From Mytilus galloprovincialis (lineage: Eukaryota > Mollusca > Bivalvia > Mytilida > Mytilidae): a DNA stretch of 64,000 nucleotides. The notes under the pieces are model-generated. The model was given only the letters and a program-made list of their open reading frames with translations. It was not told the origin of the DNA and did not search any database. Of this stretch, positions 1 to 53,392 are shown piece after piece. The translations under genes and the position numbers were made by a program. Numbering within the stretch: the first letter of the stretch is position 1; every line of letters starts with the position of its first letter. The stretch spans positions 58,703,121 through 58,767,120 of the forward strand of contig NC_134846.1 in NCBI RefSeq assembly GCF_965363235.1, written 5' to 3'.

Positions 1-2735
1 TGTGTATGATTTATATATAAAAATAGTGTGCATACAGTGTTCCACAGACTAGCATATTATAAACAACCTGTTCTGCCTCAAGGAAAATTAGAAGGGGTAA
101 AATATATCAACTAATGTTACAATTTGGTTAATCAGAACAAATATAAAACAGTTAATAAAGTTTTAGGGTAATTTGAAGTTACAAAATCCCTGACTTCAAT
201 TTATAAATTGCCAAAATTAAAAGCTCAAATACATCAAACGAATGGAAAACAGAACGATGTCATATTTCTGACTTGATACAGGAATTTCCTCATGTAAAAC
301 AGGTTGGATTAAACTTGGTTTCATAGATAGCTAAACCTCTCACTTACATGACAACAGAGTAGAATTCCATTATTTTGACAACAATGTGTTAGCAATACAA
401 ACAGACATAATAGGTGAAAATGTCGAAAAAGGGTACAGCAGTTAACATTTTATAAGAGTCTTACTCACTATAAAACAAGCAAATACATCAACTAAGAAAA
501 ACAAAATGATATAAAGACACTCTTTAGATACCGCACATAAGCAAAAATAAGAGACAAGAAAACAAAGAAATGACCATAGCACAATAACAAAATGGCGAGA
601 TGTATAAAACCAAAACCACGTCAAAACCGCAATTAAAGCGATATTTTTCTTTAAATGTCCTGTACCAAGTCAGGGGTATGGCAGTTGTTAACAAAAAGTC
701 TGTTTCTACATGAATGTATGTTGGACTTTTTTTAGAAGCAGTTCAGTATTTTTGTTGTTCCATTGTTTTCCTTGGTTTTGGTTTGTGACTCAAATTTGTT
801 TTCGCTTAATTGTTTTCTCTTAATCGATTTATGATTAATTAGCAACGTTAACTACTGTTGTCATCAAACCTAACCACAGGGCGATCTAGATTTGGAAGAC
901 TTTTTTGCATTTGATCAATGGTAATTTTTTGCCAATGATAACAATGTGGTCTTAAGCTGGTTTTAGATAAGCTCACTACATTTACATCACTGCAGGCTGG
1001 ACTAATTTCTAAATCCTTAGACGTCCTCATTGCAACCATATGGCATTGCAGTACCTTATTTCTTTAAAACGAAGACAAGTTATCTTAAATTGATTGTTGC
1101 TCCTTTACGAGTCCTAAAACAATATTTACCGTTTCCAAAAAATACTTCAATAATGAATATAAAATAAAAAGCTGTGACATTTAAACCTTGCTATTCGAAA
1201 AAAAACCGGACAACTCAATTGCAAAAAACAAAAGTATATAAAAAGACAAACAATTCAATTCATGGAAGAGTTAAAAAAAAAATGAGCAATACGAACACCA
1301 CCGAAACTGTTTATGATATCAGGTGCTCCTACGGGATCGGAAAAAAAAGCTGGTTCCAGAATAGTTCAAGAAAGCTAATCAGTAGAACCAAAATTAACAT
1401 TCGCATATTCACCATTTACTTAAGAATGCCAACATTGCTATCCTTGTCGTTGTTAAAAACACAAAACGCTTGTAGTGTTACCATTAATGAGTTTTAGAGC
1501 GAATCTTATGGGTGGGTTTTTTTTCAGAACTTATATGCTTTCAGAAGAAAGGTTTTGTAAACAGTTACTATGAAATTTCCATATATTTGAAAAAAAGCTT
1601 ATCCATGACTTTTTCTGTTGTCTGCCTTCTAGAAGGAAGATAGAAAACGGAATGGCTTACAACTTGAAAACGATCTTTCTAGTCGATCAAAAAAGGTTGA
1701 CAATATTTTCTTGATGTGAATAAGTTTCATATTCGCAGAAATCACATCGGGCCACCAGGAGTATGTATTACTAAGTTTAAATGCACACGTTTTCGAACAT
1801 ACCGCAGTAATTCTTTCAATATTTGAAAAACATATTTTTATTAATGGTATTGACTTTGCTTATATTTTTAGGAATCATTTCAATGTCATTAATATGAATG
1901 ATTTATTTAACAGCGTTCCTATTACAAATATTGGTTCATTCTTGAAGGAAGGGATACAGTATAAAATATGAAAATGTTGTATAAGTTTAAAATGATTTTA
2001 ATTTTTTATCTTTATAGTGTTGAATTTTATTTGTAAATAAACAAATATATTTCAATCGGTTGATTTATCGTTGATTTATGTGAATTAGAATGAAATGGTT
2101 TTCTTCTGAATTGTCTGCCCATAGATGGCGTTTAGGTTAAGCCTTTTGTGTGATTTGGTGGGTAAATCATTCGGCACGACAGGGTCTACTCCATAGGTCA
2201 CGTTAATTTGTACATCCATGCTATTTGATATTTTGTATCATGCATTAAAAGATTGATTGATGTACAAATCATTGTCCTTATTGAAATATATATATGATGA
2301 CATTTCGATTTTAATCGTAATTTTTATATGATAAATTTAATAAATGGTTGTTTATTAAACCAGCCCTCGGCTCTGTCGTGTGGTATAGCACTTTACTCTT
2401 TTTTGTTATTTATTAGTATGTGATTATTATCAGTGGTTGTGATTTATGGGTGTTAACAGAAGAAGAATTTTCTTCAATTATAGTTTATTAAAGGACCTTT
2501 TGTCTGAATTTAAAAATATACTGTAAATTGTAAATATATTTGAATAAGCTCTTGCCGCGATATAGCTTTTTTGTGCTCATGCAGTCTAAAGCAAACACCA
2601 ATCAGCTAATCAATCAATATTTGAAATTCCTCTAAAAGTAGATTTTGGTAATAAAAGAATTTTTTTATGTTCCATCCGTTGTGTTGTACCAAACAATGAT
2701 TTGTATCGATTCACGTAAAAAAACAAATGTATTAC
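1..2735. other. Gene A 3' intron and repeats, no exon found
   Basis: Searched on the minus strand for the missing exons 9 (EFxYSxAP) and 10; neither is present. Contains a family 4 repeat (170-300), family 5-like sequence near 1315-1360 and unclassified AT-rich DNA. Confidence 0.6.
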
Positions 2736-5700
2736 CTGAAACAATTGCGAATACTTCACTAGCACCTATCAATGTAAACTGGGGAATTTGAGCACATACG
2801 GAAACTGACGACGCAGTGTAGGTATGGTTCAAAATTGTTTGGTGAACAGAAAGATCGTCTTTACGATATCTTTCAATAACACCTGCTGCTACTACCGATA
2901 ATACTGCAAATGTCATTCCTAAACCTGAAATTAAATAGTTCGTCAACTATAAATTTATGCAAATGTTAGATTTATTTATGTTTTAGTGGCTACAAATGTG
3001 TCATATTCCCTCATAAAGAACGATTAACCCCATTTAACATAAATCATTAACCTAAATGGCAGATGGTATGCTTTGTTTTTGCCCCTTTGTGATGATTTCC
3101 ATCCATTGTATGTCAATACTATCTTTCAAAAGTTTGTATAGAGAGTTCCTTGCAATGACTTACAGTTTTGGTTTATCAATCGCAGCAAACACTGCCTGTT
3201 TAAGCTTGATCCAATTGATTAAATCCATTTACTTAAAAAAAAAAAGCCTGTACATAGTCAAGACAGTTGTTTTGCAGCCCTTTTGGTCAAACATTCAGGC
3301 GTTTTTATGGAATTCCAATTTTCGAATTTACCTTGAAGGTCTTATTGTTGTAAATATTTTTTTATTCTACAAACTTAATTTGAAATTATAATGAAAAATT
3401 AAATGCGATTACGACAAAAGTTATTACCCATTCTCTGTAAAAGTGATGGTGGTCGATTTATCCTTTTCAGAAGAGGATATATGAAGATTTCCATTAAAGG
3501 TACCAATATTAAAATGGTGATGTTGTCAAAACTTCTAAGAACTGCAACAGGAACTTTTTTCGACAATATACGGATATCAAGTCTTTCACTTTGTAGAAAA
3601 AAAGTTGAATATATCTGAGAACATATTAAAAAACATGATGAAAACATTTGAGGCCTTTTATAGCTGACAATGCGGTATGGGCTTTGCTCATTGCTAAAGG
3701 CCGTACGGTGACCTAAACTTGTTAATTTCTGTGTCATTGTTCTCGTGTGAAGAGTTGTCAAAATTGGCAATCATGCCACGTCTTCTTTTTTATAATTAAA
3801 GTATACTATTAGAAACATTTTCGTTTTTTCTTAAAATTTCAAAAAGTGGAGGTCTGTCATTGTTAATTTACAGTCAGTAAAGAATTATATTGCTGATCAT
3901 GAGGAACACAAAAGTGAAAGATAGATGGAAATTATTGATGACAGCTTCGGGGTAGAAATCTGGGAAAAAGTAAAATTACAAAAATACTGAACTCTGAGGA
4001 AAATTCAATCAAAAAGTCCCTAATCACATGGCAAAATCAAATGACAAAATACATCAAACGAATGGACAACAACTGTCATATTCCTGACTTGGTACAGGCA
4101 TTTTCAAATGTAGAAAATGGTGGATTGAACCTGAGTACCAGACAACAATCAATAAACTAAGTATAGGATTACAAGAGATCCGCTTTCAATAGTGATTTTT
4201 TATGTTTAATTGCATCCTATACATTGTACTATAAAAATAAAACAAAAAAAATAGTGAACAACGCCAATCCCTAATTCGATTATTTTCAATATCTTGATGC
4301 AATTGTTTTTATATTCATTGGTTATACTAAAATATTTTCAACCATATTAGAAAAATAATTTATCACGACTGCTATGTTTGTTTCTGTGTAATCGATTATC
4401 TAGATTTTGGACATCAGTAAACTTATTGGAGTGTTATAGCGTTAACCGAAGTACATTTTGTATCAAGCGCAGAAGCGATTCATTCTAACAATATACGCAC
4501 GGTCAACGCTTTTACAACCCTATAGAATTACCAAAAGAAGTATTCAATACTTATAATGATATTTTTAGAGGACCATGAAAACACGATCTTTATCAAGTTT
4601 TTCTTTTATTTATCTGTTAATTTTATTGTGGAAGCTCGTTTCATCATAAATGTTACATTTCATTTGGGAATGAAGGTTGATTTCAGAATGTGGCGAGATT
4701 GCTGTTGGCCAATTGAAATTACGTATTGTAAAGTCATTATGCAGACATTCATTTGTAAGATTCTTTATTTTTAGGTACACTAACTTTCTATTACCACTGT
4801 TTTTTTTGGGTTTGGTATTTATTTTATAAAATCTGGATACATATTAATGATTAAAAATAAATAGAAAATCAAAGACTATGCAAAACGGACATCACCACCA
4901 AGAAATGCGGTTAATCTCACGTGCTCCGAGAGATTCGGCAGATCCTGCTCCACTAGTGGCACCGGTAATGGTGTTTTCGGTAAGAATTAATTCGGTGATG
5001 TCACATTTAAGGAAAAGAGGACAATTTATGGTTACGACAGTTTGTCATCATATACAGCCCTTGGATGGTGTAAATTTCCAAAAACAACGTGTATGGTGAA
5101 ATTGTGTATACCATAATGTGCAATGGTAGAAGGTGCATGCTGCTATGGTGTATAGTATAAGGGGAATGATGTTATGGCGTACGAGAAATTTTAGTTTTGT
5201 ACATTAATTTACAATATTGTGATCAGAATTCGTTTCTTTAAATAAGTAAATAATTTTCTTGTCGCACGCTTTCTTTGAAATTAAATTGCATTATGGGAAA
5301 TTTTGGATGGTGTAGATGGAATTTGTAAGGTGAATGTGCAAAGGTATTACGTGAATGGTGTAATGGCACAGGGTGTATGGTTTATTAATGTAATGTTAAT
5401 TGTCTTAATGTTGTATGTTGTTAGTTGAAAGTTTACACCATCCAAGGACTGTAAAAGTGCGTTTTTACAAATGTACATATATAAATATTTTATATATGTA
5501 TTTAAGAAGTTAGACTGTAAAGTACCTGAGCATATATTCCAAAATATACAACTACGAATCCAAATATCGGTAAGAGTTTACAAAATGTGCGAACACGGTT
5601 AACAGAAACGTCACAATAGTGTCTTCCTTGATTTTCATTCGAAACTTGACCAATGCCTCTACATTTGCTAGCCCAACAAATTCCAAAAATTTCTTTAATC

Positions 5701-8700
5701 GGACTACCTGTAATATAAAAAGAAACTCCAATCAATTGGTTCTTAAAGAGATTTTTTAGTATGAATTGAACTTTACAATTTTGAACCTTCGGTTCAGTAG
5801 CTTCGATTGAAGCAGCAGGAATATATTAAGGACAACATCATAGAAATCGCAAGTCTTGAAATATCGGCTCAACTCGGATATAACTATTCGAAATTGAAGA
5901 GGTTCAAAATCGGAATGAAATTCCTCACTTTTAAACTAATATTAATGCTGAAATCTAGTTCAGATCGCAACGATATTTTCATTCAAAACTTCAAAAAATT
6001 CAGTTACACGACAAAACCTTTATAGTGAAACGTATGGTTAATGCCAGATTCTTTGTATATTTTATACCAAGCTTTTAACAACTAGGAAAGAGTAATTAAA
6101 CGTATGTTTCAGTATGTGATTTGGAACATCATTATTTTATATTCACATTCGAAACAAGACCAAAATAAAATTTCTGCACATGTTTATTCTGGACATTTTA
6201 CAAGATCGACTTTCCTAAACACATCAATATAAGAGGTGTTAGCGTGGTTTGTTGTAAGCATTCTGAGCATTCTGTGACCATACAAGCGATTTAATTCTCC
6301 AATTTTTAATGACCTTTCATGTATCTTTAGTAGGTCAACATATCGAACCGAAAAGAGACCGGATTGAGATCGCTTCTCGACCTTGTACAAAGCAGCGTCT
6401 ATATTTATATCACAATAATTTGTATCCTCCCGATAGTATGTGATTTGCAACTGGACGTTAGGCGCCAATATATGAGTATAACCATCATCTGTTTTCTTAA
6501 AATTGTCTTCAAAGTTTTAAGGGGATGCTTTAAAAATATGGATACAAGAAAAAAAAACTGCATTTACCTTCTTCTTGAGACGTTGTATATCTATTTTTAC
6601 CAATCCGAAAAATTATCTGTCCCACTATCATAACTACCACTGCTAAAAGGTAACCATAATCAAAATGGCCTACGTTCTGTTGAACATATGCTACTACTGT
6701 ATTAGCTATTACTGCACCAAAGTTAATAAACCAATAAAACCTAAATCAAAATGAAAATGTGTTTTTATGAAATTTCTAGTGAAAACTTTTAAGCTTAATG
6801 TTTTAATACATGGTATTTTTCTTTTAAAAACTTTGTCCGTATGTTTTATTCAATACACTTTTAAAAGTTCTAGAATTGATTGCATTGTAATGGAATAATC
6901 ATGACTCTCTGAATATGATTCAACGATTAACATTAATCGGTTAATGAGGAGTTTGCGGAAATCACAAAACCCAACTGTTTATGCTAAGGAAAATCTAGAG
7001 ATTAATACTGATTAATTCTAAGCTGGAATTAGCACACAATTCAGTGTACTATTAACATTATAACCGCTTTTGTACGTATTTTGGTTTCTTTTCAAAGCTT
7101 AATCACTAAATAAGCTATATTATGAAGTTTCAATATCAATATTAGTACTTACCAGCTAAAAAAAGACTGTACTGCTAGTTTACCCAAACATTCTACCTGC
7201 TGAGCGCCTAATGGCCCAATGTTAGATTTTATACCTCCGGATCCTATTGTTATGAGAACAAGTGAGCTGTAAAAAAGCGCTCGTTTGGAATCCTAAAAAT
7301 CATTAAAAAAAAACATTAATTACAATGATGCTGACATGACATATTATTTATTTGTTCTACCCCAAGGCATAGTTAGCCTTAACGATTCTTGTTGAGAGGG
7401 GTGATTGCTTTGCAACTTTGTAACTTGATATAATATAAATACTGATTAGTGTTATATAGGCATGGTTACTAGTGTAACGGCGAGATATTTACATAATATT
7501 ACCATAAACACCTCTCATATCGTGAATTTTTAAATATTCCGTGTGAAATAATTACTGTTATTGAAATATCGTATGGAGAACACAGTAGAAAATTAAGAAT
7601 AAGTTATATACATACAGAAAATTTACAAAAATAGATAAAACATAAAAAAAAAAATTTGAAAAATAGGGGTCCATACTCCTAGTCTGTAAATTTTGTGCTT
7701 AACTCACAATATGACTGAAATCATGAACAGTATATGGATGGTAGGAAGTTGCGATGTTTTAACTTTTTAATACTTTTACATATTATGTTAAAAAAGAATA
7801 TGATATAGACTTTCAATATACTTCCAATGATAACACGAATAAAATTATCAAGAATATGAAACCAACAAAACTTATCGCCCTTAAATCCCTATTTTTCACC
7901 TAGTTGAAAATAAGTTTTAATTTCAGGAATTTTTTTTATTGAAAACAAGATGTAATAGATATGAAATTGGCATAACTTTGCCTCCTCTTAAAGCCTATAG
8001 TTTAATTTTTTTGATTATGTGGCATGCTTTTGCATCACTTTCGCTCGTCCTTCCGTTATTCCCGTCTGTACCAGAGTAAGATAGTTTATAGTGACGTCGT
8101 AACTTGAACTTCTCTAGCTAATTGGTATTCGATTTATTGTTTTGCACGATATGTTGATTATATTTTTATAGATCAACATCTTAATCGTTTCATCTCAGTT
8201 TTTCATTGTTAAAAAATATATTATGACGACAATATGCAAACGTATTCTACCATCATTATTTTCCCACTCTCTATAGTTAAGTTTTAAATATGAAAGTGTA
8301 ACTGTAGGAAGTGTATAAATATCGTATCACACTCGATTCAATTGTAGATTTTTATTTTTTATGATGTGAATTTTTATAGTTATATACCAAATTACTGTTT
8401 TAACATTGTTTTCGGGATTCACCAAACATAAACATTTAGTAGCGTAAAATTATTATATTCTCTGGCTAAAGGTTTTAGTAAAGGTAATAAATGATGAAGA
8501 TGACTGTGGTCACATCCACTTAAAACTTATTACAAACGCCTATTGCAGGGTTACGCGTTAAAACGATCTCCAAATTACGATTTTGACCATAATTTTTCGT
8601 TTGATGATGCAAGCAGGACATGGTTTCCGATCGACACATATTCTTGTGTATAACTCACCTTATAGTGATGCTGATCGCCATAAAATGATTTATAGTTTAT

Positions 8701-11700
8701 AGATGAGGCAAACAGTAGAATGAGACCTGTAAATACAGAACTTATGTGTTAATATTTTCATTTTTTACAAAACAGTTCAACTGGTAAATCTCAAAAACGC
8801 ATAATGAATTTAAATCCTGGTATCTATAATAAGTTTATTTGTACATCTACATTTTAAAATTTCTTCTTTTTATTGGCACACGTTAAGAAAACTATACTGT
8901 ATAACACATATTCGTCATTTGCTGTAGTTATTCATCACAATGTGTTTATTTGATTAGGGATTGTTTGAAATATTGACAGATCCTTGAAAGTCATTCACAA
9001 CTGGTATACACGTCTTCCTCCTATTCCCACTTTTTAAAAATACTATTCCTTCTATTCCCACTTGCAAATAACAAAAGATGTTTTGATAAATAATTTGTTT
9101 TTATAACAATCAGAGTTAATTAGAATTTCACCTAAGATTTACCTGTATTTTTTTTAAAGCATAACATATTTGGTACACTGTTTAGGTATAATACCTTGTT
9201 TATTTGTAAAATGTTTCTTTTTTCATCAAATTGATACTTAAAAATAGAGAAAAATTATGATAAATAGATTGGAGTTAGATTTATTTTTAAACTTTTGAAT
9301 TTGTACTTAAAAATGAAGAAAAATTATGATAGATTGGAGTCAGATTTATTTTTAAATCTTTGAATTTGTAACTTTAAAAAATTGTCTGCTTTACTAATAA
9401 ATCATGATATGAATAATATTATAACCAAGTATAATCTTATATGTAAAATTGAGAAAGGAAATGGTGAATATGTCAAAGCGACAACCACCCGACCATAGAG
9501 CAAACAACAGCCAAAGGCAACCAATGGGTCTTCAATGTAGCGAGAATTCCCGCACCGGTAGGTGTCCTTCAGCTGGCCCCTAAAATATGCATAATAGTAC
9601 AGTGATAATGGACGTCATACTAAACTCCGAATTATACACAAGAAACTAAAATTTAAAATCATACAAGACTAACAAAGGCCAGAGGCTCCTGACTTGGGAC
9701 AGGCGCAAAATTGCGGCGGGGTTAAACATGTTTATGAGATCTCAACCCTCCCCCTATACCTCTAGCCAATGAAGAAAAGTAAAAGAATAACAATACGCAC
9801 ATTAAAATTCAGTTCAAGAGAAGTCCGAGTCTGATGTCAAAAGATGTAACAAAAGAAAATAAATAAAATGACAATAATACATAAATAACAACAGACTACT
9901 AGCAGTTAACTGACATGCCAGCTCCAGACCTCAATTAAACTGATTGAAAGATTATGTCTTCATCATATGAATATCAGGTACAATCCCTCCCGTTAGGGGT
10001 TTAGTATCATACTATCATAAAATATATGAGAAGAACATAACCCGTGTCATGCCAACAACTGTTTTTTTAGAAATAAATGTGTTTAGTTCCGATGCAAAGA
10101 CCCTATCAGTGAATCAATGTTAAAGCCAAAATATGCAATCTTTAATGACCTGACAACAGTATCGTAACTATATCCCCTTTTAATAAGTCTATTTAAAGGT
10201 TTTGTTAGTTTCTGAGGAGAATACTGACATTTTTGTGCTTTATAAAGAATATTTCCATAAAATTTTGGATGTGAAATACCTGAACGTATAAGATGTCTGC
10301 ATGTTGAGTTATATTTACGAATTATTTCCTTATACCGGTGATAAAATTTAGTAAATGTTTTGACCAGTTTGTGATATCGAAAACCCTGGTGTAATAATTT
10401 TTCAGTAATACATAAATTTCTCTCGCTAAAATCTAATACATTGTTACATACACGAGCGAATCGTACAAGTTGAGATATATAAACACCATAAGATGGTGAC
10501 AAGGGAATGTCACCATCTAAAAATGGATAATTAACAATAGGAAATGAAAAATCATCTCTTTTATCATAAATTTTTGTATTAAGCTTCCCGTTTATGATAT
10601 AGATATCAAGATCGAGGAAAGGGCAGTGGTCATTGTTATCATTAGCTTTATTTAAAGTAAGTTCTACAGGATAAATTTCTTTAGTATACATACTGAAGTC
10701 GTCATTATTTAGAGCCAATATATTATCCAAATATCTAAAAGTATTGTTAAATTTTTGTATCAAATGTTGTTTTGATGGGTCTTTGCTAATTTTAGTCATA
10801 AATTGTAACTCATAACAATACAAAAACAGGTCCGCAATAAGTGGTGCACAGTTAGTCCCCATTGGAATTCCAATAACTTGACGATATACGGAATCTCCAA
10901 AGCGAACAAAAATGTTATCAAGTAAAAATTCAAGTGCATAAATAGTAGCAAAGCATGTCCAATTGACATAGTTCTTTTGTTTATTGCTACTAAAAAATGA
11001 TCTAAAAGAGTTTGAACATATGTACTCGCATTCCGACTTTTTAAATGCCCAGTTAATTAGGGATGTGAATTTTTTCTTAATAAGAATATGAGGCAAAGTG
11101 GTATATAGGGTAGAAAAATCAAAACTTTGAACAGATTCAAAATCACCAATATATGCATGCAATTTATCAAGTACTTCCAACGAGTTTTTGACACTCCAAA
11201 AGTAATTAATTCCACTATTTTCAAAGGCCTTATTTGAACAATTTATTATCAGGTTTTTTATTGTACCAAGTGTACTAGTAAGTAAAACAGACAATTTAGT
11301 AGTTGAACAATGGCTGGAAGATGAAATAAATCTATATTTGTAAGGTTTTTTGTGCAGCTTCGGAAGCCAGTACATAGTTGGGACTTTCATTGTGTTTGGT
11401 TCTGCTTGTAAAGAAGTAGTTAAAAGTTTATGTTTGTTACAGATGTCGTTTTCTGAAAATGAAGTCAGTTGGAATGTTGGTGAATTCGTGATTTCCTTTT
11501 GCAGAACCTCTATATAAAATTTACGTCAAACAATAATGATATTATTAGCAGCTTTATCAGCCGGGACAAAAACAAATTCCTTGGCTAGTTCTGTTAGTTT
11601 ATTTTTGATACGCGAAATAGGGTTTTTATAGTTTTTGTTGAGGGTAAAATGTTCTTTAAAATGTTGTATTCGAATATCAACTATCTTCATTACTGAATTA

Positions 11701-14700
11701 AAAAAAGAGTCCAAAGATTTTTTGTCAGCTTTTTCCCGTTTTACCCATTTCAAACAGTAGGCGCGGAGTGAGTCGTTGATGATATTACGACACTCATTCC
11801 AGTTAATAGTTGACGGGGGACGATATTTAGGTCCTTTACTGAGGAATGATTTTAACTCTCGGTCGCGAACGATGTTAGGGTCTCCTGTTATAACATGGGA
11901 AATTGGTCCATAGGTGTATTCTGAATTACTGCAATTACACGACATAGGTGTATTTTCAGTGATATTTACATCTTTACACAATTGGCTATAATTAAACACA
12001 TATTTTCGGGTAGATTTCTTGTAAATATAACAAATGAGAGGGAGTTCAGTATTATCAAAATATCCAGGAATTTGGTCTTTAACAGAATGGTCGTTAAAAA
12101 TACCGGCAATATTTACAAAATCAAAACCTTTATTGACATACTTTATTTTAGTAAAAAATTTTTTATGATCTTCAGGGCGATCAATTTTTGGAAACAGTTT
12201 AGAATAACAATATGCCATTATAATTTGGACAATTTCATACTTAGGACTGTAATATGAAATTGTGTTGCAATCCTCTAAAATTTTATTTAATTTATTTATA
12301 GGTAAAGAACAAAGCTTGGTTAACAGATAATGTCTGCCGTTGTTTTTTGAAATGGAAATTAGGTCCGAAATATTTGTATGGTTGGTCCGAAATTTTCTTT
12401 GATTGCGATTTTTTCTGCGTCCATGAGAACGATTTTTACGAACAGTTTTAGAAACTATATCCAAAATGTTAACAGAATCGGTTCTTGATATATTGCCAAT
12501 TCCCATGATATTATCATTAAGACCGAGAGGGTAGACTGTCTGTAATTTTTTAATCCAATTTAATTCATTTATTTTTCGTGATCGTACAAACTTGGAATGA
12601 GATTCACCAGGCTGCTTATTTACTCCTTCTAAAGGTTGAACTGTTAAATATTTAATAGGATGACTGTGCTTCTTAAGATGTTGATAAATGATACTTTTGA
12701 ATTTATTGGGTCTTTTAAAACGATACAGGTGTTCTTGCGTGCGTTTAGATAAATATCGCCCAGTTTCTCCTACGTACTGAATACCGCATCCCGGTTTGTT
12801 TCATGTGAGTAAATAAATAATACTGTTTGTTTTTCAAGTAATATCAGTTTCAAAATTTAGAGAAAATGTGCGACCATTAAATGTGGACCTTACTGTATTG
12901 TTGGTGGAAAGACGGGGACACGTAAGTCATTTTTTGGCATGACACTTATCGATAGAAGGGTAACCACGATTTTTATTGTTAAAAACGTTAGCTATGGTAG
13001 TATTTTTAGATAAGCGATTCTGAAGATTGAGACGTGTAGATACCCTTTGAACGAGTTTAGTATTTAATATTTTTCCATTTCTAAGCTTCATATTTGTTTT
13101 TTGGTATGTAGATTTATTACAAAGGAGCAAAGACTGGCGTCCAGAATATGAACCATCACACAGTAGATTAAATTGTGTAAAAATGATAAAACTGTTCGGC
13201 TCAAGACGTCAAATGCTTATTGTCATAAGTTACCCGACAAATTTAACAAAAGATAGGGTATATCAAGGTAGCGACTGACGTCTGACTAAATAGATGAATG
13301 GGGCTGAATATTAAAATACTACTTTTTGATAGATATTCCTAAAGTAATGAACATAGAGAAGTTCTCGCTCGGACACACACTCCATAATCTAGTATAATAT
13401 AAGAGCATAAACCTTAAGCACGGGGAGGCACTCTACTGTCTCCACACGGCACTAAAGACAAACTCTGTAAAAAATAAAATTGAGAAAGGAAATGGTGAAT
13501 ATGTCAAAGCGACAACCACCCGACCATAGAGCAAACAACAGCCGAAGGCAACCAATGGGTCTTCAATGTAGCGAGAATTCCCGCACCGGTAGGTGTCCTT
13601 CAGCTGGCCCCTAAAATATGCATAATAGTACAGTGATAATGGACGTCATACTAAACTCCGAATTATACACAAGAAACTAAAATTTAAAATCATACAAGAC
13701 TAACAAAGGCCAGAGGCTCCTGACTTGGGACAGGCGCAAAATTGCGGCGGGGTTAAACATGTTTATGAGATCTCAACCCTCCCCCTATACCTCTAGCCAA
13801 TGAAGAAAAGTAAAAGAATAACAATACGCACATTAAAATTCAGTTCAAGAGAAGTCCGAGTCTGATGTCAAAAGATGTAACAAAAGAAAATAAATAAAAT
13901 GACAATAATACATAAATAACAACAGACTACTAGCAGTTAACTGACATGCAAGCTCCAGACCTCAATTATATATCTTTATTCTCACAAACCAAATTACAGA
14001 AAGGTATAGAGATAAATTAAATTATACATATTTCAATACAATTACATAAATAAATAATGTATGAAAGTAGATAGAGGCATTCACAATTGTTCACCCAGAA
14101 AAGTTCAATTTGTTATTGATCTCCTTAATAAGTTTACAAAGTTCGTTCAGTTCTGTACATTTTGGGGAATTCATGATCATTAAGTCATAAAACTTCAATG
14201 TGTTTGTTCTATTTCTATAATAATAATTGTAAAATGCAATACATTGTTTTCTACAATTATCGAAAGCTGAACAATTAAAAATGTAATGGTATTCATCACC
14301 AATGGCATCTGAATTACACAATACACATTTTCTGTTTTCTCTTTCTATGTTTTGCCATCTTCCAGTTTCTATTGGAGATTTCATGTTCAAAGTTCCAAAT
14401 TTAAGAAATAAGGATTTCTGCCGGTCATCCAAAATAAATATTTCTCAAACTCCAAAGTAACTTTATATAAACGATAATTTCATGCTTTTGGTGATTCCTG
14501 TTGGCTTAAGATGTGGAATAAAAGTATACTTTAAAATATGATTACTTAGACCAATAATCATAAGATATAAAATAATGGGTGAAAACTGTTAACTTTACTT
14601 CATTATTTATCTTGTTTAAAAAAAAACCACCAGAATTTAAACAGATGCAAAAATAACTTATTACCTGTTCTAATAAAAAAAAACTGGTCAATTAACAGTT

Positions 14701-17700
14701 GATTAAAAAATGTTTGTACAGTATAATCCTTTGTTTGCACAAGTTTTCCTTCTATTCCCACATGAAATTTTACCTTTTCTTACCAGATTTATAAAAAGTG
14801 GGAATAGAGGGAATGAACCACAAATGTTGCGATTTTTACATTGATATATCATACACCCTAAAACCACAAGCAAGGTTGATCATAGATGCATCAGTTTCTT
14901 ATAAGACATTTTCTAATACTATTCGAAACCGACGCTTACATCTATGCCTGAGACTACAGGTAACCTTTTTGAAAAGGGATAATCTCAATGTGTACAAATA
15001 CCACAGCGTTTTTGTTTAAAAAAAAAGCTTCTTTACATTTTTGATGTTGTTTAAAACTTTTGTTTTCAAATGATTTGCACTTTATTAGTTCTTTATGATA
15101 GCTGCTAATTGATTGATATCAAAATAAAAGGTGAGGGGACTTTGTGTATATTAATGTCATGTCGGGAACTATATAACTTGATATGCAATACACGTTAATG
15201 TTGTTTTTCTGTTGTGTCGTTGTTCTCCTCTTATTATTCATGCGTTTCCCTCAGTTTTAGTTAGTAACCCGGATTTGTTTTTTTCTCAGTTGATTTATGA
15301 TTTTCGAACAGCGGTATACAACTGTTGCCTTTATTTGCTCATTTTTGAAGCCTTGAACTGTATAGTTGTTAACAAGTACGTAAATTAGTCTCTGTTTTAT
15401 AATCACCTCATTGCCAATCTCACTACATCTTTTTTGTTTTTTTGTATAAGTAAAGTATTTTATGAAACTAAGGTATTTTCAATGGTGTACATATTTAACA
15501 TTTTTATCTTTCATTAGTACGAAATGCTTGAAATACATTAAACTTGCCTAAAATATAGATAAATCCAGATCCTAGAATTGTTTTATACTTCCCTGAATGG
15601 ACATCTGCAATATATCCTCCAAATGTAGGGACAAGAAATACAGAACCTGAATAACAAACAAAAATAATTCATTTAATTTCTAAGAATGAAAAAGACTGGT
15701 CTATACATTTCCATAAGCAGTTTTTAAAACTTGTTACTCTTTATTCTATAGAAGAGTCTCTATAGGAAAGCATAAAAACAACAAAATGGAACAAATTGAA
15801 TGTTTAAATTTCAGTCCAACAATTTCCTGTGGTATCGAGTATAATTGATGTATTCGCCGTTCGTACGTAACCCTTCTTTAAAATCCGTCCACATTTTAAG
15901 TCTGTTCAAAGACATGCTATCTTAACAATATCATGTTCGTAACTGTTTGTTAAATATCTGTTTTACATATATATAAGTGCTTTATAAAAACAACTGCAAA
16001 TAGAAGTTGTCTAAGAGCAAATTTACTTTGCATTTCAGCCTAACATTAATGTTTTGAATATAACGAACGACGCTACAAAGTCATGTGATATTTTGTACTC
16101 GATTTTTTTCAAAATTTTGTTAGATGATATAACCTTAGGTATTTTTTTAAATTTTGTTAGATGATATAAAACGTATGTATTTTCAAAATTTCGTTAGATG
16201 ACATAAAACTTGTAAAAACTAGTTTTAATGGCTACTAAATCGATATTTGTAATCATTTTACTGTCTGGTGGTCAGAAAAGAACATTTTTATCCTGCTTTA
16301 GTAAAGTAATTGCATATGTGATGATATCTTAAAAACTTGTTGCGTTCCGTTTTTACAGTTCATATAAGAAATCACAGTAACTCGATCTTCTGTGTCAACA
16401 ACTTCTAAAGATTATGGCTACTTTTTGTGCCCAGTCTGAGGATTTACACGTTGACCGAACGAACTCTTACAACACATCAGCATATGTTTCTTCATGTGCA
16501 ATTCAAATAGTTAACTTCCATTTCATATATAATTACATTAATTTGGTTTTTGTAACGATACTAAAGCAACAGTAGTTAATCAATATTTAATTCTCATGAA
16601 TTCCTTAAGAATACACAAGCAAGGTAAACAAATAATAATCATAAGGTAATCAAATGAACTCCAACAAAAAACGAGACCGGGTGCGTCTGCTACAGTATGT
16701 GCTTTATCCACCACGCAAATCCAAACTCATTCATGGGCTTTGCTCATTGTTGAAGGCCATAAGGTGACCTATAGTTATCAATTTCTGTGTCATTTCGGTC
16801 TCATGTGGAGAGTTGTCTCATTGGCAATCATACCACATCTTCTTTTTTGTATATATGTCAATACCGGTATATAATTATAGGATCTGGATATACAGACCAG
16901 CCAATTATTCTGGTATCTAAAGATCTAAGACCAGTCTAAATTAGCCTGAGTTTACTGACACCTTGGAGTAAGTCAAATTATATTATTCTGATACTGGTAT
17001 TGGAATTTCAACCATTATGAAATATTCAATTGATTGTACTGCTGGTAGACTATCAGTCCCCGAGAGTTTCATTAGCTCAGTAGTCAGTACTTCGTGGGTT
17101 TTTTTCTAATTTTTTAACATCATGCATGCACGTCTAAAAGACGACTACCAGCAGTCTATTAAACACTAAATAACTTCATAACGATTCATAATAACAGATA
17201 TTATATCTATTAGTAGCTAGATCTACAATGGCTAAAATTTCAAAAGAGGAATATTCCTAGATGAATCATACATTAAGACAATATCAATTGGACACAGTTC
17301 CAGTTTTTGTTTGTTTTTTTATTTTTGTTAAGATAACACATTTATCTGTGAATTTTATCGATAATAATCATCAAAGGAAATTTCCCGAAGTCCTTATATA
17401 ACTCATAAACCTAATACAAAATCGTTGTATGTCGTAGTATAGTGAGAGCAAGATAGATGTTGTTATCTTTTAATGCTTTTTGTTAGTATTAAATACCATT
17501 ACTGTAGATTCATTTATTTTCGTGGATACCAATTTCCGTGGATTGATATCAACTTTCGTATTAGTGGACATTTCAATTCGTATGTTTGGTTTCTTTAGAA
17601 AATATGTAATTCGTTGAACATTTAAACTTGTGGTTCCACTGTACCCACGACATCCACGAAAAGTAGTATCCAATGAATATTAATGAATCCACCGTAGTAT

Positions 17701-18350
17701 TTCATTACTCAAACGTTTATTAATTTATTGAAAAGAATGGAGTTCTCTTTTGAAATACAACATCTGGTAGGATAAGATAAAACCATCAATAGCAACACAT
17801 AATTTTTCTCTTACACCAGTAATCAATGACATTTAAATGATACATTATTTTTGTTATGTATACATTCATAATTGACTTCGTTTACTGTCAGCAAGGAGGA
17901 AGTAAATGCATATAATGTATACCTTGTCTAAAGATTAAACTAACTTTATACCGTGCAAAGGTTTAAAGTAAAAAAAAATGATATTTTAATATCCATAGAC
18001 ACTAGACTTGGGCTTTCTTTGTTGTTCGTTATAAATGAACCAAATCATTCAGCCTTCAACACATTATGAAGTCACGAATACTAAAATACTACTACACCTG
18101 TAAATATGATGTTGATAACAGCAGCATGCGATGAGGATATGTCCAGTGACAATGTACAATATAATATCAGATTAGCTACAACACTGTAATACGCTAAACG
18201 TTTACACACAACAGTCAGTATGATACAAACTACAGCAATCCTATCTGGATCGGTTCTATATGTGTCATTTTGTTCAGAACTTTGTATTGTTGTTGTTGTA
18301 CTTTCATGCTGTATTCTCTCAGAGTGCAGTAGTGGATCTGTCTCTTCCAT
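2736..18350 (-). CDS. SLC15A4-like: Gene A: SLC15A4-like POT transporter, 3' end outside window
   Basis: Predicted multi-pass proton-coupled peptide/histidine transporter, probably endolysosomal by homology. Exons in transcript order: 18350-18098, 15646-15548, 8726-8659, 7292-7153, 6740-6568, 5707-5526, 3614-3428, 2924-2736; together 430 codons. The last two exons (EFxYSxAP segment and C-terminal helix) should lie left of position 1. The start MEETDPLLHS matches gene B; an in-frame ATG at 18404 would add 18 residues. Visible family marks are GGYIADVHSGKY (exon 2), GSGGIKSNIGPLGAQQ (exon 4), SWFYWFINFGAVIA (exons 4-5), STFFLQSERLD (exon 7) and IPQFTLIGASEVF (exon 8). The TM1 ExxER motif reads VVCKR (residues 47-51), so both glutamates are gone. 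Intron 2 starts with GC and contains the Naiad element. It is either a working but altered transporter or an early-stage pseudogene; no frameshift or stop was seen in the eight exons. Confidence 0.85.
3650..3792 (+). repeat. 140-bp dispersed repeat, family 1
   Basis: Consensus runs from GGCCTTTTATAGCTGACTAT through GGCCGTACGGTGACCTATAG to TTGGCAATCATACCACATCT then CTTCTTTTTT. This copy lies directly upstream of gene A exon 7 and accounts for a shadow frame there. Confidence 0.85.
5055..5451. mobile_element. MITE in gene A intron 6
   Basis: 397-bp element with CAGYCCTTGGATGGTGTAAA inverted ends and TA on both sides. The interior is rich in GGTGTA / TGGTGTAATGG-type motifs. It inserted into an older dispersed repeat (4880-5052) and lies 74 bp downstream of gene A exon 6. 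Confidence 0.75.
9230..9370. repeat. Tandem duplication of a ~70-bp unit
   Basis: Two copies of a unit starting TGATACTTAAAAATAGAGAA / TTGTACTTAAAAATGAAGAA and sharing AGATTGGAGT(T/C)AGATTTATT, in gene A intron 2. Confidence 0.8.
9444..9937 (-). repeat. 3' pseudo-LTR of the Naiad
   Basis: Direct repeat partner of 13475-13968. Short tips of the same family occur alone at 23345-23437 and at 46573-46730, so pseudo-LTR fragments are dispersed in this genome. Confidence 0.9.
9973..10010 (-). promoter_or_regulatory. Candidate SECIS element of the Naiad
   Basis: About 75 bases after the TAA the minus strand has ATGA, then 12 nt, AA, 16 nt, then TGAT. ATGA and TGAT can form the non-canonical SECIS quartet. 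The 5' TAC pairs with GTA and ACCCC with GGGAG on either side of an apical loop holding AA, and the flanks (TTATGATAGT and ATTCATATGA) give a partial basal stem. The decayed copy has the same core at 48375-48412 with two substitutions outside the quartet and the AA. Confidence 0.6.
10083..13091 (-). CDS. Naiad polyprotein: GIY-YIG endonuclease plus RT, four in-frame TGA (selenocysteine)
   Basis: Retrotransposon protein for nicking the target and copying RNA into DNA. From ATG 13091 the frame runs 1002 codons to a TAA. TGA occurs at codons 55, 86, 97 and 522, and there is no TAA or TAG inside. Domains: Cys-rich knuckle (C50, U55, C58, U86, U97, C102); GIY-YIG nuclease (IIY 91-93, QYVGET 105-110, R117, later H residues in HLKKHSHP, then INELNWIKKL); CxC linker C385-N-C387; conserved FVPADKAANN just before U522; RT from about 570 with motif A Asp658 (SFDFSTLYTTLP), IGIPMGTNCAPL, and motif C at 787-790. 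Motif C reads YLDN, not YLDD, so this copy may be impaired. Another ORF call would split it into three pieces at the TGAs. A start upstream of 13091 is unlikely because an in-frame stop lies at about 13210. Confidence 0.85.
11526..12929 (-). other. Four in-frame TGA codons, probable selenocysteine sites
   Basis: TGA at 12929-12927, 12836-12834, 12803-12801 and 11528-11526, all in the same frame as the coding sequence on both sides. Contexts: CHAKK-U-LTCP, ETDIT-U-KTN, IIYLLT-U-NKPGC and NNIIIV-U-RKFY. From my knowledge of the family, relatives carry cysteine at these places, in the zinc-knuckle/GIY-YIG cysteines and in the VV-C-KKYY-like segment after the ADKAANN motif. Four random nonsense mutations would rarely all be TGA and all hit cysteine positions. 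Confidence 0.8.
13475..13968 (-). repeat. 5' pseudo-LTR of the Naiad
   Basis: 494 bp direct repeat of 9444-9937, starting TAAAATTGAG on the plus strand and ending CTCAATTA. The differences seen are CAGCCGAAGG for CAGCCAAAGG, and ATGCAAGC for ATGCCAGC. Confidence 0.9.
13970..14440 (-). mobile_element. 3' fragment of a non-LTR (LINE) retrotransposon
   Basis: The open frame 14432-14091 encodes the C-terminal tail of a LINE reverse transcriptase. KCVLCNSDAIGDEYHYIFNC has the C-x2-C...H-x4-C layout of the zf-RVT knuckle that follows RT in such elements. The RT itself is absent, so the copy is 5' truncated. It abuts the Naiad pseudo-LTR at 13968. Confidence 0.7.
15546..15547 (-). other. GC donor of gene A intron 2
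   Basis: On the minus strand exon 2 ends TTTTAG and the intron begins GCAAGTT, the strong consensus for rare GC-AG introns. The acceptor is the TTTACAG before exon 3 at 8726. Gene B has the same GC donor at the same place; gene C uses GTAAG there. Confidence 0.85.
16734..16852 (+). repeat. Dispersed repeat, family 1, 5' truncated
   Basis: Starts at GGGCTTTGCTCATTGTTGAA; in gene A intron 1. Confidence 0.8.
17038..17155. repeat. Inverted repeat, CTGGTAGAC type
   Basis: ACTGCTGGTAGAC and GACTACCAGCAGT face each other across about 90 bp holding AGCTCAGTAGTCAGTACTTCG. Single arms recur at 25735-25795 and 58747-58808. Confidence 0.55.
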
Positions 18351-18880
18351 TGGTCTATCTACTAAACTGTTATCTATTGTGCAGATTGAATTAATACCAA
18401 ACAATGTTTGTCCATTTCGTGTTTACAAGTATTTAACTGTCTACCAGCAAAGTCCAACTATTTTAAACTGTTAAACAATCCAGGTATAATTTTTGTTTGC
18501 CATCATTATTTCTGTGTCAAAGCGTACAATACGGGTCATTAAAGGTTTAAAAGAAAAATGTTCAATGCACGCAACAAAATCTTGATAGAGCTTATTTTAA
18601 CCTTGTTTTGTGTACCACGCCGACTCTAAACAAAGCTTATTTATTATTATTATTAATACTAATAATGTTATCGTTGTTTAGTCAAGCTTTTCGGTTATCT
18701 TATAAGACATGTGAAACTGATATAAAATTTGTTTTGTCATTTTTATTCAAATGTAACTTGAAACGAGTTAATATTAAATAGATGTTATCTTTTTTATAAT
18801 TATATATAATTGATTATTGACATAGTTTGTTTTTTTTATAAATTAAACATTTGTTTTCTTCTCGATCGAAGAAATTTAAA
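18351..18880 (-). other. 5' flank of gene A, homologous to that of gene B
   Basis: Stretches such as GTCCAACTATTTT, CGTACAATACGGGTCA and TTATTCAAATGTAACTTGAAA have counterparts at 40448-40640 and, beyond the Harbinger insertion, 42334-42600. Homology ends near 18880/42600, which I take as the right edge of the duplicated block. No clear TATA box. Confidence 0.65.
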
Positions 18881-21545: not shown

Positions 21546-24500
21546 TTAATCGCCCAGGTCGTTACCGGCGTTGTGAGACCTTTCATTGTTTTGTTCTTTT
21601 GAGTTCTTGTATCTTTTAGCAACAAAAATAAACAGTATGAAATTTAAAAAAGTAAGTACTGCAAATAAAAAGAATAAGTTTTCTGCCTTTCCATTGTTGA
21701 TATCATCTGGAAGCCACAGATCTGGAATAAATAAGAACATAAATCTATTTAAAAAGAGTTTTAGTATCAATATAAAGACGTTTTTGCCTAATGACTGAAT
21801 GAATAAAACACGTCATCAGGTCCGAGTGCACAGTTATTTTGTAATACATTTCTTTTAGACAATAAATGGAAATAACAAAAATCCAACCAGCATTTTCTCA
21901 ATAATATTCTTACAGTGTGTTGTACTACTTTTGGGACAAATTTGATCAAAAATATAGAAAACTTTATCGGCTCAAACTCAAAAAAGGGAAAATTCTATGT
22001 AAAGGTGGTCTTGAAATCTTTTGACAGCTTCCGAAATGCTAATTTTTAACCTTTTTCAGCTGAACCAAATCACTACTTTAATTTAAAATTCATGAATCCA
22101 ATTTTTTCACAAGGTAATTTTATCCCTCTTCTTGCTGTTTTAGGCATAAAACATGAAGACAAAAATTGGAAAGAGTATTAAAAAAATTGGCAAGTAACAC
22201 ACTGTCCACACTATATTTGTGGACAACGAAATTCAAGGAACGATAACTGTGTACTCGGACCATCAAACAGCAACAGTAGGTGTTATATATTCATAACAAA
22301 CAGTTCTTAATTTTCTGTTTATAAAATAAATTCTAAATCATTATGAAACTAATGTTCCAACTCTCATATGCAAAGTTGAGCTTAGATGGTGAGATTCTTT
22401 TTTGAATGTCCTTTTTTAGTAATCAAGTACCTTCTATATAAATACATCCATGGCTTTCAAGTTTGTTTCTTAGAATTCCTAATGAAGATATTTCCTGAAA
22501 AAACGCGTCGGACGCATATAATCATATAATCGATATAATATCATATTATACGAGACATTATGTTGTTTAATAAATGAAAAAAAAATAAGCCAACTATAAA
22601 TGGTTGATTAAAAGAAAAAAAACGTCACTTATTTTTTTGATTTTTTTTATCCATTAATTATTTCAGCTTAATTTTGATTACTCCTTTTCTATGTTCTATG
22701 TTGGTAGTTAATTGTCTTCAGAATGTGTAAATTGATTTTGAAGTTATCAACGACCACTGGAATGTTTTCAGAATCATACACGAAGAAAGATTAGTGCTGT
22801 TAAATCTTTTTAACCGTACAGGGAAGAGAATATGACAAGGTTTTTAAGGTTTAAGAAAGCCATATTTTTATTTTTATTTTTTGTAAGATTTCTGATTTGC
22901 TTATAAAGTGAAGAACATTCTAGAATGGTCAGGTTGAAATTTCGCTTTTGTTGCTTGTAAAGGAAAAAACATATTTGTGTAGGAAAAGTTAATCCTTTAA
23001 ATCATTTTTTGGTGTATCTGTAAACTTGTTTCTGAAAGAAATTCGTATAATCTGCTTTGCAATTATACTATGACTTGCTTTTAGGTTCGCAAATTATGTG
23101 ATTTACATTACACTAAACTGTACCTTTAAATATTCCGTTCACTATTTTAATAATCATTAATGCAAAAAAAGCGCCTATTCCTATTGTATCTAAATATAAG
23201 CCCATGCATACTCCTTTCATCATGTCTGGTGCTTCCGAATATGTAAATTCCATGCCTACAATGAATTATGGGCATAAGAGTAGGTACATGAAATTTTTTT
23301 AAATTCTGCCTAAATAGTTGACTATTTTGTCTGCGCTACTAAACTTGTTAATAAAATTGAGAATGGAAATGGGGAATGCGTCAAAGAGACAACAACCCGA
23401 CCAAATAAAAAACAACAGCAGAGGGTCACCAACAGGTAAGCATTTATTACCATTAGGAAAATTATAATGGTAAAGATTAGACATTTGGATAAAATATTCG
23501 TGTGTCTATATGTATATATCTCATTTAGATGCTATAGAAAGAATATGAAAAGATTGAGTCTGCACATTGCATATCAAAAAAATTGTAAGGGTTCCGTTGA
23601 CCCCAGTGTCTCGCTACGTTTGCTGTTAATCGCAGGTTCAACTTCAATGAGGAAAAAATCAATAAAATTATTCCTCTTGATACTATATTTGACAGTAAGA
23701 AGCCTCTGTCCAAGTTTGGTAAAAATCCAGGATAGTTTATGAATCTAATAAATGTTATTAACTTTAACTGCAGACTGTATGTAATGTTAACTGGAAGAGA
23801 TACTAAGTCGATTAATTAGTAAAACACAGATACACAGATACAAACTTTTAACAAAATTTCCATCAAGATACTAGCTTTGGATCATAAACAAGCTTCTGTT
23901 CAAGTTTGGAACAAACCCAAAATAGTAAAGTTATTAAAATTTTATAAACATTAACCTTAGAGTGAATGCGTTGTTTTCCAAAATAGTAAAGTTATTAAAA
24001 TTTTATAAACATTAACCTTAAAGTGAATGTGTTGTTTCGCTGAAAATCTAAGTCCATTTAAAAGTAAAAAACGGAAAAAAATGGATTTTATTTTTACAAA
24101 AATTACTTCTGTATACTATCTTATGATCATAAACAAGCTTCTGTTCAAGTTTGGTAGAAATCCAAGATAGTTTTAGAAAGTTATTAAAATTTCAAAAACT
24201 TTAACAACAGAGTTAATATTTGTGAACGCCGCTGACGCCGACGACAACGCCGATGTAATGTAGGATCGCTATGTTTCTCTTTTTTTAACTAAAGTCGAAG
24301 GCTCGACAAAAAGCTAAACGTCTGTGTTATTTAAAAAGAAGAAAAATCACAAAAATACTGAACTCAGAGGAAAATCCAAAAGGGAAAACCTCAATCAAAT
24401 AGCAAAATTAAAAGCTCAAGCACATCAAACGAATGGATAACAACTGTCATATTCCTGACTGGGTACAAAACTTTTTTCTAAGAGAACTAACATTATTTGA

Positions 24501-40447: not shown

Positions 40448-40783
40448 TTGACTATCTACGAATCCGTTGTTTATTTTTCAATTTGAATTTAAACATTCAA
40501 ATTTTTGTCAATTTCGTGTTTACAATTGTTTAAACATTCGCCATCAAAGTCCAACTATTTTTAAATTGTCGCTTTATCCAGGTATGACTTTCTGTTTGCC
40601 TTTAATATATCAATGTGAAAGTGTACAATATGGGTCAATGAGTAAAATTACCTGATTTTAAATCAGTTTATTTAAGGAAATGTAAAGATCATTCAAAAGT
40701 TTAAAAAAAAAAAGATAAGTCGATTTAAAGCTAAATAGAGCTGATATTGTCTCGTTGTTTTGTATGCCACCCAGACTCTAATA

Positions 40784-48001: not shown

Positions 48002-48789
48002 TCAGTGATAATGAACGCCATACTAATTTCAAAATTGTACAAAAGAAACTAAAATTAAAATAATACAAGACTAACAAAGGCCAGAGGCTCCAAACTTGGG
48101 ACAGGCGCAAAAATGCGGCGGGGTTAAACATGTTTGTGAGATCTCAACCCTCCCCCTATACCTCTAGCCAATGTAGAAAAGTAAACGCATAGCAATACGC
48201 ACATTAAAATTCAGTTCAAGAGAAGTCCGAGTCTGATGTCAGAAGATGTAACCAAAGAAAATAAACAAAATGACAATAATACATAAATAACAACAGACTA
48301 CTAGCAGTTAACTGACATGCCAGCTCCAGACTTCAATTAAACTGACTGAAAGATTATGATTCCATCATATGAACATCAGGCACAATCCTTCCCGTTAGGG
48401 GTTTAGTATCATACCATCATAACATATATGAGAAGAACATAACCCGTGTCATGCCAACAACTGGTTTTTGAATAAATGTGTTTAGTTCCGATGCAAAGAC
48501 CCTATGAGTGAATCAATATTAACGCCAAAATATGCAATCTTTAATGACCTGACAACAGTATCGTAACTATATCCCTTCTTAATAAGTCTATTCAAAGGTT
48601 TTGTTAGCGAGCGAATCGTACAAGTTGAGATATATAAACACCGTAAGATGGTGACAAGGGAACGTCACCATCTAAAAATGGATAATTAACGATAGGAAAT
48701 GAAAAATCAAAATACATTTAACAAAACAGTCGATTTCAGTAGGACCAAATCCTTCTGTATCTTTAAGATGCATAATCATAGATTCAACT

Positions 48790-52305: not shown

Positions 52306-53392
52306 AAATACAGAAAGGGGAAATTATACAACGTCCAACGTAACTGGAGCAATCACTAGTAATGTTAACAAAATTCAACCCATCTATATACAAATTAAAA
52401 CATATAATAAGGAAACACTGGAATCTTAAATACAAAAAAATGAAATTGTGAACATATCAAATAGCTTAAAAAAGACATAAAATCTTACAGAACTTCTATC
52501 AAAGCATAAACAGGTATAGTTCGCTCGATGTTTCACAATATAATATGATTCTGAACTCAGAAAAAAGACATCCAGCGTATAGTCCAATATAACATACGGA
52601 ATAAAACAAAAAAAGCAAAAATAAGCAACTATGGACTACAACAAGGCCATTCCTGCAATTTCTGTTTGTCGCCTTGATTTTTGTCTCTTCTCTATCGTTT
52701 TAAGAGATGTGAACATTGTCACCCAAAGATTTTCCGTATCAAACTAGAATCAGAAATCATTTCAACAGGAACATGCCACATACTTTATTAAGTGAGTTTT
52801 ATGTACTTTTATTCATATCTGATGCTAACTATCAATGCTCGCCAAATATTCAAACCAAGTCTTACGACTTACAGATTTTTATCCGTTATAAGTTGTTTCA
52901 GTTTAGTATATAAAAACTCCCTGACTGATAGTGAAAATAGACGTTTCCATGGCTGTTCCTTAACTCAAAGTTCCAATGACATATAAATACTGTTGACATT
53001 TTGTAGGATCATTGCAGGTTTCTTTCTAAGGGAGATGGAAAAAGAGGGACGAAAAATACCAGAGGGGCAGTCAAACTCATAAATCAAAAATAAACTGACA
53101 ACGCATGGAACCTTTCTACCACAAACATTTATCAAAGAATAAACATTTGCAATTCATTTAAAAGAAAAAAACAATTTACTGCATTGCTACAAATTGTCTA
53201 ATGAAAGTGCATTTCAATGCGGAAGCTGAGTACATTTAACTAAAATGATATAATTGTATTTATTTATAACATGACTTTGATTATCCAAGTCGGCATGTGA
53301 TACTGATAAAACCTGTAACCGATTTAATTTTAGAATAAAGTATATTGTTTGCCCATAGCCATACAAAACATTTGCGACAGAGAATTGTTCCA

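Follow-up and report, generated by a model that had tools for sequence, protein, structure and literature searches.

A multicopy Naiad-like retrotransposon of the mussel Mytilus galloprovincialis with four in-frame UGA codons, a putative selenoprotein gene

Naiads form a clade of Penelope-like elements that was reportedly set out by Craig, Yushenova, Rodriguez and Arkhipova in Mol Biol Evol in 2021, and selenoprotein versions with several selenocysteine (Sec) residues are said to occur in clams and spiders. To our knowledge, dependence on the selenocysteine machinery is very rare among mobile elements. Here, we describe an element with four in-frame UGA codons in the mussel Mytilus galloprovincialis, located in a stretch of 64,000 nucleotides (assembly GCF_965363235.1, contig NC_134846.1, positions 58,703,121 to 58,767,120 of the forward strand) that is called the window throughout this paper. 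With a probability of about 0.93, it is a young, high-copy permuted Penelope-like element whose protein is a selenoprotein, the four UGAs being recoded to Sec under the control of a Sec insertion sequence (SECIS). Several defining features of Naiads are found in it as well: a GIY-YIG nuclease ahead of the reverse transcriptase (RT), a CxC linker, a telomerase-related RT, pseudo-long terminal repeats (pseudo-LTRs), and no hammerhead motif found. Such selenoprotein elements have been reported from clams and spiders; the host here is a mussel (Pteriomorphia), and the element would be another instance that widens the reported range within bivalves. A literature search at title level, combining Penelope-like, Naiad or transposon with selenium, found no paper on the subject.

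Canonical elements of the Penelope/Poseidon type, represented by an Anolis element, also have pseudo-LTRs and carry RT and GIY-YIG in one open reading frame (ORF), whereas they place the nuclease at the C-terminus and possess a hammerhead ribozyme (PMC11167929); in the mussel element the nuclease is N-terminal. According to the same text, pseudo-LTRs of Penelope elements arise from tandem arrangement, which matches the repeat layout found here. Another paper treats Naiad as one class within the Penelope-like elements (PMC10941475). Among host proteins, the selenoprotein SELENOP contains 46 Sec in oysters and 132 in one bivalve species, and bivalves are described as Sec-rich (PMC8230778). SELENOP and the element are alike in having several in-frame UGAs as Sec under SECIS control, which for the element is the reading proposed here, and in their Sec-rich bivalve hosts; SELENOP differs in that it is secreted and belongs to the host, and in vertebrates it has two SECIS, whereas one SECIS match and a mobile-element enzyme are found here. 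The deiodinases McDx and McDy of Mytilus coruscus are mussel selenoproteins with TGA as Sec and a SECIS in the 3' untranslated region (UTR), as proposed for the element; these are host genes with a single Sec, unlike the element with its four TGAs (PMC8481496).

The four UGA codons and the selection behind them

The ORF of the element runs on the minus strand from an ATG at 13091 to the end of a TAA at 10083 and comprises 1002 codons plus the TAA (Table 1). Ahead of this TAA, four TGAs, no TAA and no TAG are in frame; a random frame of the same length would, by base composition, be expected to hold about 42 TAA, 16 TAG and 16 TGA. Residue numbers follow the read-through translation (P0001), in which the start Met is residue 15. 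The preliminary description of this DNA, which was made from its letters alone, had reported the frame with exactly four in-phase TGAs and placed the element in an intron of a transporter gene; coordinates and TGA contexts were correct, the strand, which it left unstated, is minus, and the element is indeed bracketed by exon-like segments of an SLC15/POT-type gene.

It had also been proposed that the TGAs stand at cysteine positions of related elements, and the homologs bear this out. Those used (120 of 125 found) were aligned with the four sites masked, and a second alignment of 53 sequences was made with MAFFT, with Cys written at the four sites. Cys was present in 24/28 (masked) and 35/36 (MAFFT) homologs at site 69, in 33/43 and 38/38 at site 100, and in 47/48 and 41/41 at site 111; at site 536, 104 Cys and 9 Trp were counted among 113 homologs in the masked alignment, and 49 Cys and 3 Trp among 52 in the MAFFT alignment. 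Ten columns of the MAFFT alignment are at least 60% Cys, and the element has TGA at four of these and TGT or TGC at six; twelve columns reach this level in the masked alignment, namely those ten, one at which the element has Cys, and one at which it has Ser. The chance that four random codons all fall on Cys columns is about 5 × 10^-9 with ten columns and, by hand arithmetic, about 1 × 10^-8 with twelve. When 28 homologs were aligned over the nuclease region, with Cys written at the TGA sites of the query row, four Cys columns proved invariant, and three of them are TGA sites. Four TGAs at conserved Cys were obtained in none of 2000 runs of a neutral simulation.

As to the location of the sites, the preliminary description spoke of zinc-knuckle/nuclease sites and of one site before the RT. 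Three are found in the N-terminal Cys cluster and GIY-YIG region; the fourth, residue 536, closes a predicted strand (528-536) and falls inside the part of the predicted model that aligns with telomerase, approximately residues 371-987.

The TGAs are shared by many copies. The genome of the window (1.38 Gb, 331 contigs) was searched with two protein queries and one RNA query; only the copies nearest the query are scored by these searches, and the window copy is included in the counts. The first protein query consisted of the 326 residues that precede site 536; 7566 candidates were obtained and 123 of them scored, 106 at 98-100% identity and 17 at 91-92%. Thus at least 106 copies match all or most of this query at 98-100% protein identity, and the copies are spread over contigs C1-C14. 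The full protein as query gave 57350 candidates, of which 45 were scored; each of these contains at least four TGAs, and 39 contain exactly four and no other stop. In the remaining six full-length copies, the additional stops are one TAG in a single copy, two TAA in two copies and four TGA spread over three. Codon-by-codon reading covered the 30 best and all 17 second-subfamily copies of the 123. Among the 30 best, site 536 is TGA in 30/30, sites 69, 100 and 111 are each TGA in the 22 copies that reach them, and the six other conserved Cys are encoded by TGT or TGC wherever covered. In the second subfamily, TGA was read in 11/11 copies at site 69, 11/11 at site 100 and 12/12 at site 111, while site 536 is TGA in 16 copies and TGC, a Cys codon, in one of the 17. 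The preliminary description had suggested that only TGA or Cys codons should occur at the four positions, and this is what the copies read at codon level carry: TGA and the single TGC, no TAA or TAG, and no unrelated sense codon.

The region behind the first UGA has been conserved as protein. Over residues 70-208, the window copy differs from 11 second-subfamily copies by 14-20 synonymous and 5-9 non-synonymous changes, with dS of 0.18-0.27, dN of 0.016-0.029 and dN/dS of 0.06-0.16; as judged from these substitutions, the region is under purifying selection. It contains no Met codon and is located behind UGA69, and an in-frame product that starts at an AUG therefore needs at least one UGA to be read through. 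Together, codon constancy, one exchange of the Sec-to-Cys type and selection behind a UGA provide strong evidence, of a genomic kind, for recoding.

The SECIS match and alternative explanations

A match to the Rfam family SECIS_1 is found in the 3' UTR just past the stop, where the preliminary description had advised a SECIS search, and it recurs in both subfamilies. Its E-value is 0.0038 in a search of 5.8 kb with all families and 0.042 over the 64 kb window, and the core motifs AUGA, AAA and UGAU are all present. Only two SECIS_1 matches with E up to 5 occur in the window, and both are inside copies of the element; none was found in 21.9 kb of other fetched loci. The SECIS is present in every one of the 20 young copies that were retrieved together with the 3' UTR; it is identical to that of the window copy in 16 and has one change in each of the other four. 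In the second subfamily it was read in 15 of 17 slices, the other two being unaligned there, and the core is kept in 14. Five differences separate the SECIS of the two subfamilies; none is in the core and two are in helices, where a mismatch becomes a G-C pair in one case and a standard pair is retained in the other, and pairing rises from 16 to 17 of 18. The host genome encodes two tRNA-Sec genes, with scores of 79.6 and 77.0 bits (cut-off 47); the same search also gives matches above this threshold in 5 of 14 control genomes. The earlier view of a transposable element that uses Sec is thus supported by TGA constancy in the copies, the SECIS match and Cys in the relatives.

On these grounds a mechanism can be outlined. 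The SECIS in the 3' UTR, together with the host tRNA-Sec and Sec factors, would recode the UGAs at codons 55, 86, 97 and 522 to Sec; in the cluster around the nuclease, Sec would take the place of three conserved Cys, and the fourth Sec would do so for the conserved Cys at the N-terminal end of the RT. The protein, once made in full, would then nick DNA and reverse-transcribe its own RNA into the genome, and insertion would leave 5'-truncated copies and pseudo-LTRs. The insertion of Sec at the UGAs, its functional equivalence to Cys there, and this mode of movement are inferences.

Several points weigh against a selenoprotein. Both SECIS scores, 30.9 and 32.3 bits, are under the Rfam gathering cut-off of 35. 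In free folding, the 65-nt SECIS of the window copy does not surpass shuffled sequences (z -0.06; -1.70 with flanks); for the second copy in the window, z is -1.88 (-1.26 with flanks). Among the 20 young copies, one is changed in the apical AAA and another has a one-base deletion in the lower stem, and one of the 15 second-subfamily copies read (L078) is altered in the core UGAU. The copy counts given above are neither a random sample nor independent, because only best-matching, related copies are read, and the dN/dS values amount to about one independent comparison, that between the two subfamilies, because the 11 comparisons share history. Moreover, a single SECIS serving four UGAs, three of them within 43 codons, is expected to be inefficient.

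The alternative that survives best, although it is improbable, is generic readthrough, in which near-cognate tRNAs (Cys, Trp or Arg) decode the UGAs without any Sec and the SECIS-like hairpin is unrelated. UGA followed by C is a leaky stop context, and two of the four UGAs precede C; nine relatives with Trp at site 536 could also be read in this way. Among the rows of the RT tree, Trp at this site is confined to the element's own clade (8 Trp and 16 Cys, versus 0 Trp and 86 Cys outside), and the RT of the ninth relative (P0064) is covered too little for the tree. Trp also stands at the first Cys of the CxC motif in three relatives, again only within the own clade among tree rows. Such Trp may stem from a TGG codon or from a gene caller that rendered TGA as Trp, and is not counted as evidence. 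Generic readthrough does not account for a SECIS_1 match just past the stop that is kept in nearly all copies of both subfamilies read there, for stops that are all UGA and all at Cys columns, or for the TGC of one copy.

It is very unlikely that two or three separate proteins are made instead, with the UGAs acting as true stops and the RT arising by internal initiation. Met codons from which the RT could start include those at residues 210, 582 and 587. This reading was rejected on account of residues 70-208, which have no Met codon, are under in-frame purifying selection, and include the conserved GIY-YIG residues and the Cys cluster; in addition, relatives outside the element's clade often have one whole ORF, 49 of 88 predicted ORFs reaching column 116 or less. 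In the clade itself none of 29 does so (Fisher p 7 × 10^-9); short ORFs throughout the clade are what in-frame stops near the N-terminus would produce, a comparison that concerns protein rows only and no DNA.

Ordinary decay, that is, a dead copy that gathered TGA stops by chance, can hardly be maintained. The window copy is indeed substituted in its RT catalytic motif, and single copies do decay: between 29 young-subfamily copies and the window copy, 137 synonymous and 321 non-synonymous changes were counted (neutral site ratio 3.8), a pattern that fits copies mostly decaying after insertion. However, the same TGAs are present in 22/22 N-terminally complete copies of the 30 best and again in the second subfamily, and decay is refuted by these shared sites. 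The purifying selection behind the TGAs also opposes it, as does the fact that the two pseudo-LTRs differ at only 2 of 494 sites, yet about 94 mutations on average were needed to gain four stops in the neutral simulation. A variant code with TGA as Cys or Trp, formally compatible with TGA at Cys columns, was rejected as next to impossible, given that the genome encodes tRNA-Sec, the frame itself uses 25 TGT/TGC and 7 TGG codons, the window carries animal SLC15-type genes, and 42 of 45 scored full-length copies have no TGA beyond the four.

Architecture, genomic setting and relatives

The predicted fold gives the order N-terminal GIY-YIG nuclease, CxC linker and telomerase-like RT, all in one ORF, and the element is, on this model, a Penelope-like retrotransposon with permuted (Naiad) order. 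The cysteines of the CxC motif, 399 and 401, are conserved in 45/47 and 47/47 homologs. Pfam gave no RT or GIY-YIG match on the element itself, and such matches were obtained only in relatives; no Rfam hammerhead was found in the element (8800-14600, E up to 5). Eight of the 30 best copies are 5'-truncated, with no N-terminal Cys cluster and a match that begins inside the ORF.

In the catalytic motif of the RT, the window copy has YLDN in place of YLDD, a change that none of the 27 further copies with a readable motif shows. Given this substitution, the window copy is probably inactive, whereas the element family has very probably been active until recently. The same change is also present in a distant relative (P0008).

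The element lies in sense orientation in an intron of the transporter gene. The assignment of this gene rests on PF00854 matches in other exons (6533-6745 and 2668-2946), and the upstream bracketing segment, 18087-18377, has no Pfam match of its own; of ten SLC15-type segments given to Pfam, seven matched PF00854 and three first-exon segments did not.

Table 1. Coordinates of the element, its UGA codons, predicted domains and associated features in the window.
Feature	Position	Strand	Basis or remark
Single ORF of the element, read through four TGA	10083..13091	-	homologs; 45 scored full-length genome copies including the window copy
TGA, residue 69 (codon 55 from ATG)	12927-12929	-	conserved Cys column
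TGA, residue 100 (codon 86 from ATG)	12834-12836	-	conserved Cys column
TGA, residue 111 (codon 97 from ATG)	12801-12803	-	conserved Cys column
TGA, residue 536 (codon 522 from ATG)	11526-11528	-	conserved Cys column, N-terminal end of RT
N-terminal Cys cluster, residues 64-116	12786..12944	-	homolog alignments; TGA at three of six conserved Cys columns
GIY-YIG nuclease domain, approximately residues 105-200	12534..12821	-	predicted fold
CxC linker motif, residues 399-401	11931..11939	-	homolog alignment
RT region, approximately residues 520-900, telomerase-like fold	10434..11576	-	predicted model
RT YxDD motif, last Asp substituted (YLDN)	10722..10733	-	motif read in 28/30 best copies
SECIS_1 match	9964..10028	-	Rfam, 30.9 bits; starts 54 nt past the stop
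5' pseudo-LTR	13475..13968	-	direct repeat, 494 bp, 2 mismatches to the 3' copy
3' pseudo-LTR	9444..9937	-	direct repeat
Host-gene exon-like segments bracketing the element	18087-18377 and 7152-7286 (span 7152..18377)	-	SLC15/POT-type gene
Second, deleted copy: parts of C-terminal ORF, SECIS, part of pseudo-LTR	48003..48709	-	nucleotide match to the element
SECIS of the second copy	48366..48430	-	Rfam SECIS_1, 32.3 bits, E 0.017

The second copy in the window aligns with the element at 93% nucleotide identity in a stretch of 609 bp and at 97% in another of 102 bp. At a distance of 1.27 kb, a fragment at 46566-46736 matches its missing 3' end at about 82%; in element coordinates the two overlap by 6 bases, and the gap is possibly a later insertion into that copy. 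Elsewhere in the genome, pairs of same-strand copies about 4 kb apart were noticed (G000:C13:20713665-20720744 and G000:C3:50305282-50310265), as expected of tandem Penelope-type insertions. Beside one young copy, fragments of a related element with 70-75% identity (L046, 48-421, 993-1165 and 5175-5560) point to older families in the genome.

In the RT tree (118 rows, the element and 117 homologs), the element belongs to a clade of 30 with SH-aLRT support (Shimodaira-Hasegawa-like approximate likelihood ratio test) of 99, a value that comes from a quick search with related rows that are not independent. Its nearest neighbours are two proteins at 79 and 75% identity. Further relatives came from contigs of symbiont assemblies, in which three loci correspond to two Bathymodiolus fragments and one 37-residue Ctena fragment; one Bathymodiolus fragment spans site 536 and has the codon TGT there, and SECIS_1 gave no match in the Bathymodiolus and Ctena loci. 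These loci, filed in GTDB (L001, L002, Thiodubiliella metagenome-assembled genome (MAG); L003, Thiodiazotropha MAG), are apparent host mussel or clam DNA with Naiad-like fragments, and P0037, filed under a Campylobacter assembly, looks like contamination of the same sort. In viral contigs, a profile search with the homolog alignment returned 39 stretches with no relative among them, and two DNA patterns gave 0 matches each.

Possible consequences and other features of the window

The element is young and numerous, so recoding of four UGAs would have worked well enough for recent spread. If the UGAs are recoded, the mobility of the element would be tied to the selenium machinery of the host. 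It is conceivable, although doubtful, that Sec acts as a functional gate, with the full-length enzyme and mobility depending on the selenium or redox state of the host, because three UGAs precede the nuclease domain or fall within it and the fourth is at the start of the RT; equally tentative is the idea that 3' fragments scatter SECIS that the host could capture. The fragment at 48003-48709 retains the SECIS and no UGA-bearing part. The element offers a tractable case of one SECIS supporting several closely spaced UGAs outside SELENOP and of repeated replacement of Cys by Sec in one nuclease, in which the response of transposition to selenium could be followed.

Two matches to the type I hammerhead, at 28872-28915 and 58507-58549 on the minus strand, score 32.5 and 24.9 bits (gathering cut-off 34) and are probably retrozymes like those described in mussels (PMC7229834). 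The window also contains three SLC15/POT-type genes or gene parts (2668-18422, 21549-40477 and 53339-63376), two on the minus and one on the plus strand, which apparently represent a local duplication. Extra partial copies of one SLC15 exon were observed at 28379-28828, adjoining the exon at 28935-29159, with a hammerhead repeat beside them.

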